Source: Pedobacter sp. SYSU D00535 (GTDB lineage: Bacteria > Bacteroidota > Bacteroidia > Sphingobacteriales > Sphingobacteriaceae). Taken from it: a stretch of 64,000 bases of DNA. Location of the stretch: positions 62,001 through 126,000 of the forward strand of contig NZ_JAFEWD010000006.1 of NCBI RefSeq assembly GCF_017355855.1, in the 5' to 3' direction. Under the pieces are notes generated by a model. The model did no database searches. It worked only from the letters and a program-made list of their open reading frames with translations, and was not told the DNA's origin. Position numbers and translations under genes: made by a program. Position 1 is the stretch's first letter, and the number at the start of each line of letters is the position of its first letter. Of this stretch, positions 23,756-27,994 are shown piece by piece.

Positions 23756-24721
23756 ATGAAAAAAAACTTAATTGTTTTAGGATTTGCAGTGCTTGCGTTT
23801 GCAAGTTGTAAGCAATTTAAAAAAGGGGAAGGGGATTTGCAGTACATTATCCATGAGGATAAAGATGGTGCTACTATAAAAGAAGGCGATTTTATTGCCC
23901 TTAAGGCAATTCAAAAAACAGAAGAAGATTCTGTTTTATACAGTTCTTTCGATTTTGACCGTCCGGCATTTCTTGTTCAGCAGAAATCTGCTTTCAAGGG
24001 AGACTTATATGCTGGCTTGGCAATGCTTAGTGAGGGAGACAGCGCTACTTTCAAGATTAATCTTGATTCTATGCAGGCCAAAATGGGAATGCCTAAGCCT
24101 CAAAATACCAAAGGCAAGTACATGGTATTTAATGTGAAGATCGATAAAGTGATTCCTAAGGGAAAAATGAACGATCAGCAGTTCCAGGGAAAAGTAGAGC
24201 AGTTTATGAAAGCTGAAGTTGCTCAGGCTAAAAACAAAGAAGCTGGAAAAATTACCGGTTATATCTCATCTAAAGATTTAAAGCCAACAGTGACGGTATC
24301 TGGACTTAACTATGTGATCAATAAACAAGGAAACGGACCGAAAGCATCTGTAGGTGATACCGTAAGATTGAACTATACAGGAATGTTCTTAACCGGAAAG
24401 GTTTTCGACACAAGTGATCCTGCAGTGGCAAAGAAGAACAATACATTTGATCCAATGCGTCCGTACGAGCCGTTAAAGGTTCCTGCTGGTGTTAATAGCA
24501 CTATTCCAGGTTTTGATGAAGCCTTGTTACTTTTCCCTAAAGGCACGAAAGCAACAGTGATTATTCCTTCAAAACTAGCTTATGGAGAGCAGGGAAATCA
24601 AGCAATCCCGCCGTACACGCCGTTAGTTTTTGATATTGAAATTTTGGATATCATCAAGGCAAAACCTGGCAGTACACCGGCTACACCGCCGGCAGTTCCA
24701 CAGATGCCAGCAACAAGATAA
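23756..24721 (+). CDS. FKBP-type peptidyl-prolyl isomerase lipoprotein
   Basis: Predicted envelope lipoprotein: signal MKKNLIVLGFAVLAFAS followed by lipid-modified Cys18. Two FKBP-like regions are present. The first (about residues 25-130) is degenerate, with GDFIALKAIQKTEEDSVLYSS. The second (183-300) is canonical, with GDTVRLNYTGMFLTGKVFDTS, PGFDEALLLFPKGTKATVIIPSKLAYG and PLVFDIEILDI. It should catalyse prolyl isomerisation or act as a periplasmic chaperone for outer-membrane proteins. The next gene is a paralogue with the same two-part design, so this is a tandem duplication. It ends in its own terminator. Confidence 0.92.
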   Translation: MKKNLIVLGFAVLAFASCKQFKKGEGDLQYIIHEDKDGATIKEGDFIALKAIQKTEEDSVLYSSFDFDRPAFLVQQKSAFKGDLYAGLAMLSEGDSATFKINLDSMQAKMGMPKPQNTKGKYMVFNVKIDKVIPKGKMNDQQFQGKVEQFMKAEVAQAKNKEAGKITGYISSKDLKPTVTVSGLNYVINKQGNGPKASVGDTVRLNYTGMFLTGKVFDTSDPAVAKKNNTFDPMRPYEPLKVPAGVNSTIPGFDEALLLFPKGTKATVIIPSKLAYGEQGNQAIPPYTPLVFDIEILDIIKAKPGSTPATPPAVPQMPATR

Positions 24722-24727
24722 AATCTG

Positions 24728-24752
24728 AAAGCCTTCGCAAGAAGGCTTTTTT
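24728..24752 (+). terminator. Terminator between the two FKBP genes
   Basis: Stem AAAGCCTTC/GAAGGCTTT with a GCAA loop and a T-run, seven bases after the stop. Confidence 0.9.
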
Positions 24753-24803
24753 AATAATGCCCCGAAATACTAAAAGATAAGGGGAAGAGTTTTAGTAACA
24801 TTT

Positions 24804-25835
24804 ATGAAGTTAAAAAATATTATTGCCGTATTGTTGCTGGTTGCATCGGTGCAGGCGTTCGGTCAAAGCAATGCAGGGATGCAACGGATGACAAATGGCG
24901 TTCTTTATAGGATTTACACCAAGAATGATAATCCAAAGATCAAGTTGAACGATGTTATCACCTTCAATTTCGTTCAGAAGACCGATAAGGATTCCGTGCT
25001 TTTCAGCAGCTTCGAAGCAGGAAGGCCAGCTCAGATCCAGGTTCAGGAATCTAAAAATATAGCTGACCTGATGACGGTATTTCCTCTTTTAGCTGCCACT
25101 GACAGCGCTCTAATCAAGGTTCCAACAGATTCTTTATTCAAGGGTGCCGAAGATCAACGCCCTCCGTTTTTTCCAAAAGGCAGTTATCTCTCCTTTGTAT
25201 TAAAAATCGAGAAAGTACAATCGCTTGAGGAGGCAATGGCTGAGCAGCAGAAAGTCATGAATGAGATGAAATCTCAGGAAGCCGCTGCTTTAGCAAAATA
25301 CGCAGCCGGTTCGTCAACCAAATTTACCGCAACAAATTCTGGCCTTCGCTATGCTATTGCAAGGCCTTCAGTAAAAGCAAAGCCGATGAAGGGAGATACT
25401 GTGCTGGTGAATTATATTGGCAGAACCTTGAATGGAAAGCTGTTCGATACCAGTATTGAGGCAGAAGCTAAAAAAGCAGGTCTGGAGCAGCCGGGAAGAA
25501 ACTATGAGCCGATCAGCGTAGTAGTTGGTCAGGGTCAGGTCATTCCAGGTTGGGATGAAGGACTACTGCTCTTTAATGAGGGAGCTAAAGGAAGTTTGCT
25601 GATTCCCTCTGATCTCGCTTATGGAGCCCGCGGAGCAGGAGAGGATATTGCGCCTTTCTCCCCCTTGTTATTCGACGTAGAAATTGTAAAGGTTAAACGT
25701 GTGAAGAGGGCCGCTACTCCAGCAAAACCTGCCACTACTGTTAAGAAGCCGGTTTCTAAAACACCAGTAAAGAAGCCCGCATCCACAACAGTTAAGAAAC
25801 CGACGAGTACAACTAAAGCTCCGGTGAAAAAATAG
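24804..25835 (+). CDS. FKBP-type peptidyl-prolyl isomerase with Lys/Thr/Pro-rich tail
   Basis: Paralogue of the preceding gene with a signal peptide (MKLKNIIAVLLLVASVQAFG) but no lipobox Cys, so probably soluble in the periplasm. A degenerate N-terminal FKBP-like region (GVLYRIYTKNDNPKIKLNDV) precedes the canonical FKBP domain at about 180-303 (GDTVLVNYIGRTLNGKLFDTS, GWDEGLLLFNEGAKGSLLIP). The last 40 residues are a basic repeat of TVKKP and KTPVKK units, resembling histone-H1-like tails; this suggests binding to an acidic polymer such as LPS, nucleic acid or cell wall. That is an inference. It has its own terminator. Confidence 0.9.
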   Translation: MKLKNIIAVLLLVASVQAFGQSNAGMQRMTNGVLYRIYTKNDNPKIKLNDVITFNFVQKTDKDSVLFSSFEAGRPAQIQVQESKNIADLMTVFPLLAATDSALIKVPTDSLFKGAEDQRPPFFPKGSYLSFVLKIEKVQSLEEAMAEQQKVMNEMKSQEAAALAKYAAGSSTKFTATNSGLRYAIARPSVKAKPMKGDTVLVNYIGRTLNGKLFDTSIEAEAKKAGLEQPGRNYEPISVVVGQGQVIPGWDEGLLLFNEGAKGSLLIPSDLAYGARGAGEDIAPFSPLLFDVEIVKVKRVKRAATPAKPATTVKKPVSKTPVKKPASTTVKKPTSTTKAPVKK

Positions 25836-25839
25836 AGAG

Positions 25840-25864
25840 AAACCTCCTTCGGGAGGTTTTTTTT
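25840..25864 (+). terminator. Terminator of the second FKBP gene
   Basis: Eight-base stem AAACCTCC/GGAGGTTT with a TTCG tetraloop and a long T-run, directly after the stop codon. Confidence 0.92.
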
Positions 25865-25939: not shown

Positions 25940-26035
25940 TGTCACGCTGTCATTTTACTTTCTTCTCATCTTGTCGGTTTTATTTTGCAATTCCTGTCAA
26001 ATTGATGTCACGCTGCTCTTGGCATAACCCTTGTT
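25940..26035 (+). promoter_or_regulatory. dnaK upstream region: TGTCA repeats and sigma-54-like promoter
   Basis: The ten-base word TGTCACGCTG occurs twice (25940 and 26006) with further TGTCA or TGTCG words between. Downstream lies TTGGCATAACCCTTGTT (26019-26035), which has the GG-N10-GT spacing of a -24/-12 sigma-54 promoter, with GT instead of GC. It lies about 48 bases before the ATG. No CIRCE element is present. The words are seen directly; their role in heat-shock control is inferred. Confidence 0.45.
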
Positions 26036-26083: not shown

Positions 26084-27994
26084 ATGTCAAAAATTATTGG
26101 TATCGACTTAGGAACAACTAACTCCTGCGTAGCCGTGATGGAGGGTAATGAGCCTGTAGTTATAGCTAACAGTGAGGGAAAGCGCACAACGCCGTCTATT
26201 GTAGCGTTTGTGGAAAATGGCGAACGGAAAGTTGGTGATCCTGCCAAACGCCAAGCTATTACTAACCCTACAAAGACAATTTACTCTATCAAGCGTTTTA
26301 TGGGTAACAGCTACAATGAGGTTAGCCGTGAAATTGAGCGCGTACCATATACAGTAGTAAAAGGCGATAACAACACCCCACGTGTTGAAATCGATGATAG
26401 GAAATATACACCACAAGAAATATCTGCCATGATCCTTCAGAAAATGAAGAAGACCGCAGAAGATTTCTTAGGACAAGAAGTTACCGAGGCCGTAATTACA
26501 GTTCCTGCTTATTTTAATGACGCACAACGTCAGGCTACTAAAGAGGCAGGCGAAATCGCCGGTTTAAATGTGAAACGAATCATCAATGAGCCAACAGCAG
26601 CGGCACTTGCTTACGGTTTGGACAAGGCTCACAAGGATATGAAAATCGTGGTGTTCGACTGCGGTGGTGGTACACACGACGTGTCAGTTCTTGAATTAGG
26701 AGATGGCGTATTCGAAGTAAAATCTACAGACGGTGACACCCACTTAGGTGGTGATGACTTTGATCAGGTAATTATCGATTGGTTGGCATCTGAGTTCCAG
26801 GTTGAAAATGGAATGGACCTTAAGAAAGATGCAATGGCGCTTCAGCGCTTGAAAGAGGCCGCTGAAAAAGCTAAAATTGAGCTTTCAAGCTCTACTCAAA
26901 CGGAGATCAACCTGCCATACATCACTGCTGATCAGACTGGTCCGAAGCACTTGGTTCGTACACTTAGTCGTGCTAAGTTCGAGCAATTGGCAGACAGCTT
27001 AATCAAACGTACTATCGAGCCATGTCGTTCAGCGTTAAAAAATGCAGGTTTGTCTACTTCCGATATTGATGAAATTATCTTAGTGGGTGGTTCTACACGT
27101 ATCCCTGCTATCCAGGATGCTGTTAAATCATTCTTCGGAAAAGAGCCATCAAAAGGTGTTAACCCAGACGAGGTAGTTGCAATTGGTGCTGCTATCCAGG
27201 GTGGTGTATTAACCGGTGAAGTGAAAGATGTACTGCTTCTTGACGTTACTCCGCTTTCATTAGGTATTGAAACTATGGGTGGTGTAATGACACGGTTGAT
27301 TGAAGCTAATACTACTATCCCAACCAAGAAATCAGAAACGTTCTCTACTGCTTCAGACAATCAGCCTTCTGTAGAAATCCACATCCTGCAAGGTGAGCGT
27401 CCAATGGCAAACCAAAACCGTACAATTGGTCGTTTCCACTTAGATGGAATTCCACCAGCACCTCGTGGTGTGCCTCAAATTGAAGTAACTTTTGATATTG
27501 ATGCAAACGGAATCCTGCATGTATCTGCAAAAGATAAAGCAACAGGTAAAGAGCAAAAAATCCGTATCGAAGCTTCTTCCGGTTTATCCGATGAGGAAAT
27601 CCAAAAAATGAAGCGTGAAGCGGAAGCAAACGCTGAAGCTGACAAGAAAGCGAAGGAAGAGATCGACAAGTTAAATGCAGCTGATGCGCTGATCTTCTCC
27701 ACTGAAAAGCAGTTGAAAGAATACGGAGACAAGATTTCTGCAGAGAAAAAGGATCCTATTGAAAGCGCTTTAGGCAAACTGAAAACTGCACATGCAGCCA
27801 AAAACTTTGCCGATATCGATGCAGCACAAGCTGAGCTACAAAATGCATGGAATGCGGCTTCTGAAGAGATGTACAAAGCAACTAACGGAGATCCGAATGC
27901 TCAGGCAGGAGCTAATCCTGGCGCAGCAGCCAACGGCGGTTCTAACAACGCAGGCGATACCGTAACTGACGTTGATTTCGAAGAAGTTAAATAA
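26084..27994 (+). CDS. dnaK: Chaperone protein DnaK (Hsp70)
   Basis: Cytosolic ATP-dependent chaperone. The ATPase domain starts [18 protein letters not shown], with [32 protein letters not shown] and [13 protein letters not shown]. Linker [18 protein letters not shown] joins the substrate domain ([20 protein letters not shown]). The C-terminus is a Gly/Ala/Asn-rich tail ending VDFEEVK. Length of 636 residues is standard. dnaJ and grpE are not adjacent. Upstream TGTCA repeats and a sigma-54-like promoter suggest stress control without HrcA. The gene ends in a strong terminator. Confidence 0.98.

Follow-up and report, generated by a model that had tools for sequence, protein, structure and literature searches.

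The leader of dnaK most probably holds a sigma-54 promoter together with an activator site upstream of it and is served by the enhancer-binding protein (EBP) encoded next to miaB, referred to here as P0001. In that case a sigma-54/EBP machine of the ordinary kind would have an unusual role, namely the main chaperone control of a class without HrcA. Sigma-54 control of Bacteroidota chaperones as such is already described in the available portions of two publications (PMC9723704, PMC12316311). The EBP assignment, the 13-bp operator, the 10.5-bp ladder of sites and an operator over the EBP promoter were not found in the open full-text literature searched. The stretch analysed, hereafter the window, comprises 64 kb (G000:C16:62001-126000) of a 4.89-Mb genome in 20 contigs, and the features that carry the argument are as follows.

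25840-25864, plus strand: terminator-like hairpin and T run, read by eye, 3' of an FKBP-type gene; sets dnaK apart
25940-25952, plus strand: predicted distal activator site TGTCACGCTGTCA, of the form TGWCA-N3-TGWCA, 80 bp upstream of the TGGC, from motif search and family comparison
25995-26007, plus strand: predicted proximal degenerate site TGTCAAATTGATG, 25 bp upstream of the TGGC, in the register of the grpE site
26006-26010, plus strand: extra TGTCA half-site, 14 bp upstream of the TGGC, opening the second TGTCACGCTG
26019-26035, plus strand: sigma-54 -24/-12 promoter element TTGGCATAACCCTTGTT, from sequence and conservation
26046, plus strand: expected transcription start, from the position of the element with its GG taken as -25/-24
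26084-27994, plus strand: dnaK, 636 aa, matching DnaK profiles
G000:C13:106307-107539, minus strand: P0001, EBP of 411 aa, adjoining miaB

The dnaK leader and its conservation

On its own strand, dnaK is immediately preceded by two FKBP-type peptidyl-prolyl isomerase-like genes (23756-25835), which are ended by the terminator-like hairpin, a region read by eye with AACCTCC at 25841 and GGAGGTTTTTTTT at 25852. The initial annotation had described two copies of TGTCACGCTG and additional TGTCA words in the dnaK leader, and both are present: TGTCA occurs at 25940, 25948, 25995 and 26006, the first and last of these coinciding with the starts of the 10-mer, and a fifth copy, at 26085, falls within dnaK. 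The -24/-12 element that it had also recognised is borne out as TTGGCATAACCCTTGTT, with the GG-N10-GT spacing at 26021-26034. On both strands of the 64-kb window TGGCAY-N5-TTG[ATC] occurs once, at 26020 before dnaK, and TGWCA-N3-TGWCA likewise once, at 25940, the minus-strand row of the latter search being the same site as the plus-strand row. The word TGGCAYNNNNNTTGYW is matched exactly only once in the window, in the dnaK leader, and its weight rests on that match only, the chance figure (4 seen against 8.2 expected) covering up to one mismatch. A scan of the dnaK region against Rfam gave no match.

The conserved unit is the 13-bp TGWCA-N3-TGWCA at 25940-25952 and not the 10-mer TGTCACGCTG. 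With up to one mismatch the 10-mer is at chance level in the window (3 seen against 2.1 expected), and its exact form occurs seven times in the 4.89-Mb genome, twice in the dnaK leader and five times elsewhere; we rejected it as a regulon word, as five of the seven copies do not, judged by sequence context, precede a recognised stress gene. That the repeats recur before other chaperone genes, as the reading in the initial annotation implied, holds for the 13-bp form but not for the exact 10-mer. The form TGWCANNNTGTCA is found at nine places in the genome, two of the nine being palindromes counted twice; three precede dnaK, groES and the miaB-ebp operon, and the others lie mostly inside reading frames, one of them overlapping the start of an unrelated 502-aa frame. 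TTGGCAYNNNNNTTGWT was also rejected as a genome-wide regulon word: only dnaK among its five places is a chaperone gene, and it misses the others because groES and grpE differ from that form.

A search of 61 genomes of the family (Sphingobacteriaceae) returned 30 dnaK loci, and all 30 have a -24/-12 element in their leader, 59-91 bp upstream of the ATG. Of these leaders 19 contain the strict 13-bp site and 11 lack it, and half-sites lie at -25 in 13 and at -14 in 6 of the 30. At the -12 step our genome has GT, and the forms in the family are GT, GA or, at groES, TGA/TGT, against the GC of the standard TGGCAY-N5-TTGCW. The initial annotation had named a dnaK start elsewhere with a TAnnTTTG element as an outcome that would refute its reading; within 200 bp of dnaK this element occurs in 3 of the 30 family leaders and in none of 29 leaders from the class, and our own leader is without it. 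RpoN is encoded in 118 of 118 genomes sampled from the phylum, the copy in our genome (G000:C14:253150-254592, minus strand) scoring above the cut-off.

We examined 91 dnaK leaders across the phylum: 29 from the class, 23 from outside the class without HrcA, and 39 from HrcA-bearing genomes. Three of the 118 genomes had no dnaK at the threshold used, and of the other 115, 24 were left out as HrcA-bearing or not fetched. Within 250 bp of dnaK the strict TGGCAY-N5-TTG[ATC] is present in 23/29, 4/23 and 4/39 leaders of the three groups, respectively, and within 690 bp in 23/29, 22/23 and 21/39; the antisense strand over the same 690 bp has it in 0 of the 91. In the class, element and 13-bp site occur together within 250 bp in 14 of the 29 leaders and the strict site is missing from 12, and among 5800 dinucleotide shuffles of these leaders the element turns up in 0.28% and the 13-bp site in 0.17%. 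Class leaders lacking the strict element include three with TGGTA variants that carry the 13-bp site (G071, G153, G131) and two with near matches (G076, G092). The dnaK of G172 (locus L218), a 2.0-Mb class genome in which no sigma-54 element was found within 690 bp of the gene, is an exception to the reading; the only strong EBP match of that genome is the miaB-linked one.

In many genomes outside the class, the sigma-54 element lies 500-680 bp upstream, before an apparent small gene ahead of dnaK (L221-L241) that we read, by eye, as of the Hsp20 type. These upstream elements are of the TGGCATTGTGCTTGC type and in some families come without the 13-bp site, and another activator or operator may serve there.

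Other chaperone genes and helical phasing

For groES and miaB, counts refer to distinct leaders (52 and 93, against 59 and 101 non-distinct), and the genome and named-locus sets overlap. TTGGC[AG]Y is present in all 52 groES leaders, and TGGC[AG]YA-N5-TG with the correct GG-N10 spacing in 51, against 2 of 52 on the antisense strand; the -12 step is TGA or TGT, and TTG in none. The strict 13-bp site is found in 33 of the 52 and is missing from 19, and our own groES leader contains TGACAGGCTGACA and TTTGGCATAATAAGTGACC. Before grpE, TGG[CT]A[ACT]-N5-TTG is found at 17 of 24 family loci (antisense 0/24), and all 17 of these leaders carry a CTGACAGCTTGAC-like site starting 25 bp (16 leaders) or 26 bp (one leader) upstream of the TGGC. 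The case for clpB as a member of the set is weak: a weaker element, TGGYA[AT]-N5-TTG, occurs in 12 of 23 leaders (antisense 0/23), and a GACA-N3-TTTC-like stretch about 35 bp upstream of it is poor in our genome. Only element-bearing leaders were aligned for the grpE and clpB logos (17/24 and 12/23), and the partial clpB locus L279 was left out. The clpB element lies about 30 bp before the start codon in the 12 of 23 leaders (L256-L278), and a sigma-54 promoter at this position would leave a very short leader.

Sigma-54 elements before groES, dnaK, grpE and clpB agree with the sets given in the available text of the two publications. Mapped starts with a sigma-54 motif in Flavobacterium psychrophilum are listed for groES, lon, dnaK, grpE-dnaJ and htpG in one co-expression cluster, with clpB in another (PMC9723704), and sigma-54 at chaperone genes is reported to be statistically enriched in Bacteroidota and Planctomycetota (PMC12316311). 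In contrast to our reading, the available portions of neither paper assign an activator or a binding site; PMC9723704 counts three PF00158 proteins without deciding on a match. In the text of PMC12316311 available to us, grpE is said to be under sigma-54 control in B. thetaiotaomicron and F. psychrophilum, and the source given is reference 80, a Blattabacterium genome paper.

A further property of the sites is their distance from the promoter, measured from the site start to the TGGC for sites gathered without choosing phase. These fall on a 10.5-bp ladder at -25, -35, -56, -67, -78, -88, -99 and -109. Most of the 19 family dnaK sites fall between -77 and -81, with others at -46, -68, -69, -88 and -89; for groES, the 33 sites are at -77/-78, -87 to -89, -98 to -100, -109 and -26. 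When all 70 sites are taken together, the best period is 10.55 bp (R 0.85). Because related genomes do not provide independent sites, two fairer tests use sites from other families and distinct gene-offset pairs. The former set (family f1 rows left out; restricted to leaders that carry the element as well as the strict site) holds 18 dnaK sites, at -25 (5), -35 (2), -56/-57 (4), -67/-68 (4), -75, -79 and -89, with an R of 0.89 at 10.5 bp that none of 5000 random sets equalled over periods of 8-14 bp. The 29 distinct gene-offset pairs were equalled in periodicity by 0 of 5000 random sets. The distance of the same sites to the ATG, taken as a control, is aperiodic (R 0.13, n=52). Eight decoy words were tried, of which four were common enough for scoring. 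TTGCA and CTTGA are aperiodic, and TCTGA and ACTGT are periodic, probably through overlap with the edges of CTGWCA sites. One site, in G151 at -75, lies off the ladder.

Such phasing is to be expected if a DNA-bound activator has to touch the sigma-54 polymerase from a single face of the helix, and it ties site and promoter together as one unit. The sites at -25 would abut the polymerase, which is unusual for an enhancer-binding protein. Comparison between genomes strongly supports the proposal of the initial annotation that sigma-54 acts here with an activator bound at the TGTCA sites: the element in 30/30 family leaders, its absence from the antisense strand in the three groups of phylum leaders, RpoN in 118/118 genomes, the phasing, and the same layout at groES and grpE all point to a promoter of this type.

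The miaB-linked enhancer-binding protein

Sigma-54 promoters require an EBP, and P0001 has the domains of one: Sigma54_activat (PF00158) at 12-178 with 227.6 bits, an AAA lid and a C-terminal HTH_8 (PF02954) at 372-408. Its loop reads GSFTGA, of the GAFTGA type, with GAYTGA or GSFTNA in some relatives, and the helix-turn-helix (HTH) is nearly invariant among orthologs. The Pfam scan found no receiver and no sensor domain, and the protein passes no equivalog cut-off among the NCBIfam profiles tried. An AlphaFold model is poor (mean pLDDT 52, pTM 0.31) and was used for secondary structure only. As an AAA+ sigma-54 activator with a Fis-type HTH and no sensor domain, P0001 resembles PspF, whose profile TIGR02974 it matches along 12-403. 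It differs in scoring 269.6 bits against a cut-off of 443.55, in its targets, and in being about 70 residues longer, with a conserved, predicted helix-forming stretch between AAA+ and HTH. NtrC acts from upstream sites in helical phase with a -24/-12 promoter, an arrangement that the sites described here share; unlike NtrC, P0001 has no receiver domain (it scores 325.3 bits on the ntrC profile, where the cut-off is 558.6), and some of its candidate sites are only 25 bp from the TGGC. HsfA of Myxococcus xanthus is a heat-shock-linked sigma-54 activator, an NtrC-like response regulator acting on lonD, and P0001 is likewise a candidate sigma-54 activator tied to heat shock.

Orthologs of P0001 are present in 29 of 29 class genomes sampled, with 53-80% identity when our own genome is set apart. 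All 118 phylum genomes have an EBP match of some kind, orthology outside the class being less clear by score and length, and the ortholog is present also in genomes that keep HrcA. Relatives found via the activator in the Sphingobacteriaceae belong to Pedobacter, Mucilaginibacter, Olivibacter, Arcticibacter, Paradesertivirga and others. The gene order is miaB-ebp-lptE-hypothetical-secG-groES-groEL (G000:C13:99500-110500; L116, L082). Among 24 family regions, miaB precedes ebp in all 24, and groES follows in 18 of the 20 with the downstream part fetched; in G007 the ebp gene is flanked by miaB and an LptE-like gene. Outside the family a MiaB-like frame precedes ebp at 25 of 26 loci scanned, and at the exception, L160, the end of the upstream frame resembles MiaB of L159. 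The order from miaB to groEL links genes of tRNA modification, LPS export, protein export and the chaperonin to one regulator gene.

G005, at 1.7 Mb the smallest genome sampled in the family, encodes one full-scoring PF00158 protein, the miaB-linked EBP. The site is retained there as TGACAGCATGACA before groES and as TGACATTCTGTCA before miaB, and the dnaK leader has half-sites only. Because sigma-54 promoters need an EBP, no other single observation speaks as strongly for the assignment as this genome. We infer from these comparisons that the binder of the chaperone sites would be the miaB-linked EBP.

The best palindromic copies of the 13-bp site lie before the miaB-ebp operon itself. The miaB leaders examined contain no sigma-54 element. 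In 49 of the 93 distinct leaders (200 bp each) the strict site is present, and in 49 of these 49 a TAnnTTTG follows 21-35 bp downstream of the site start, a distance at which 9.7% of random positions have one; 42 of the other 44 leaders have a half-site in a similar place. In Bacteroidota the -33 and -7 elements are usually 19-21 bp apart, and with this gap the second half-site covers the -33 element of the miaB-ebp promoter. This suggests that the EBP may repress its own operon from a palindromic site over the -33 region of a TAnnTTTG promoter.

Alternative explanations and a proposed mechanism

Classical control by HrcA and CIRCE, as in Bacillus, has next to no likelihood here. HrcA also controls dnaK and groE, and is found in 65 of the 118 phylum genomes; it is, however, a repressor, all 65 of those genomes lie outside the class, and none of the 29 class genomes has it, including ours. 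The absence of CIRCE before dnaK noted in the initial annotation is upheld, the best match to TTAGCACTC-N9-GAGTGCTAA there covering 9 of 18 positions. No CIRCE was seen before dnaK in the HrcA-bearing genomes either (GCACTC-N9-GAGTGC search), and CIRCE at dnaK is therefore no yardstick here. A strict switch between HrcA and sigma-54, suggested by the narrower 250-bp count (4/39), was rejected, as 21 of 39 HrcA-bearing genomes have the element before dnaK or the gene upstream within 690 bp; nor is loss of HrcA a clean switch, because the EBP ortholog occurs also in genomes that keep it. In the Chlorobia-like family f15, several genomes (among them G163, G111 and G167) have hrcA and their best EBP match on one contig, about 10 kb apart. 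RpoH (sigma-32) is not known from Bacteroidota. It is also highly improbable that dnaK has a promoter of the sigma-70 type under a repressor like RprY and that the -24/-12 match is coincidental. RprY binds the groES, clpB and dnaK promoters of P. gingivalis in gel shifts and is read as a repressor in the available text of PMC3646045, but coincidence sits poorly with an element in all family leaders, with its absence from the antisense strand of the 91 phylum leaders, with phasing to that element, and with the scarcity of TAnnTTTG in those leaders (3/30). RprY may act in addition, as a further layer.

If the promoter is of the sigma-54 type, its sites could be bound by one or more other EBPs, the miaB-linked one mainly serving, for example, envelope (lptE) control. 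Our genome encodes at least five further EBPs, five of them with receiver-like N-terminal domains, and the ortholog's presence in HrcA-bearing lineages indicates that its oldest role may differ. We nevertheless regard this as improbable, given that the best palindromic sites precede the miaB-ebp operon, that the family maintains the linkage of ebp with groESL and that G005 has no other full-scoring EBP. A rather unlikely reading, to be taken seriously all the same, accepts sites and promoter and replaces heat by envelope stress, surface growth or osmotic change as the signal. The envelope genes lptE and secG sit in the ebp cluster, and the F. psychrophilum sigma-54 promoters are, in the accessible part of PMC9723704, up on blood agar and partly or less so with osmotic pressure, plasma and freshwater; the targets dnaK, groESL and grpE are, however, cytosolic chaperones. 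Heat or misfolding is the presumed signal for dnaK activation.

Returning to the miaB-linked EBP as the activator, we propose the following mechanism. RpoN polymerase would wait at TTGGCATAACCCTTGTT (26019-26035), and P0001 would bind TGWCA-N3-TGWCA at 25940-25952 and probably also the weaker site at 25995-26007. Upon protein misfolding it would open the dnaK promoter through ATP hydrolysis, and it would act likewise at groES and grpE and perhaps at clpB. At its own operon it would cover the -33 region of the TAnnTTTG promoter, and the operon would be repressed. PspA inhibits PspF, and our guess at how the signal could reach the sensor-less P0001 is inhibition by free chaperone, or by a partner in the manner of PspA and PspF. 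In its widest form the proposal is tentative and somewhat doubtful: the miaB-linked EBP could be a master regulator of proteostasis in the class, perhaps in most of the phylum, that activates dnaK, groESL, grpE-dnaJ and more from whole-turn sites, the closest at 25 bp, that represses the housekeeping promoter of its own operon, and that free chaperone keeps inactive until misfolded protein frees it.

If true, an activator-type sigma-54 circuit based on chaperone titration would stand in place of HrcA or sigma-32. The ladder of sites would be a natural series on how near an activator may sit to sigma-54 polymerase, and HrcA-less Bacteroidota would have one candidate gene and one operator, kept across the class, for the control of their chaperones.
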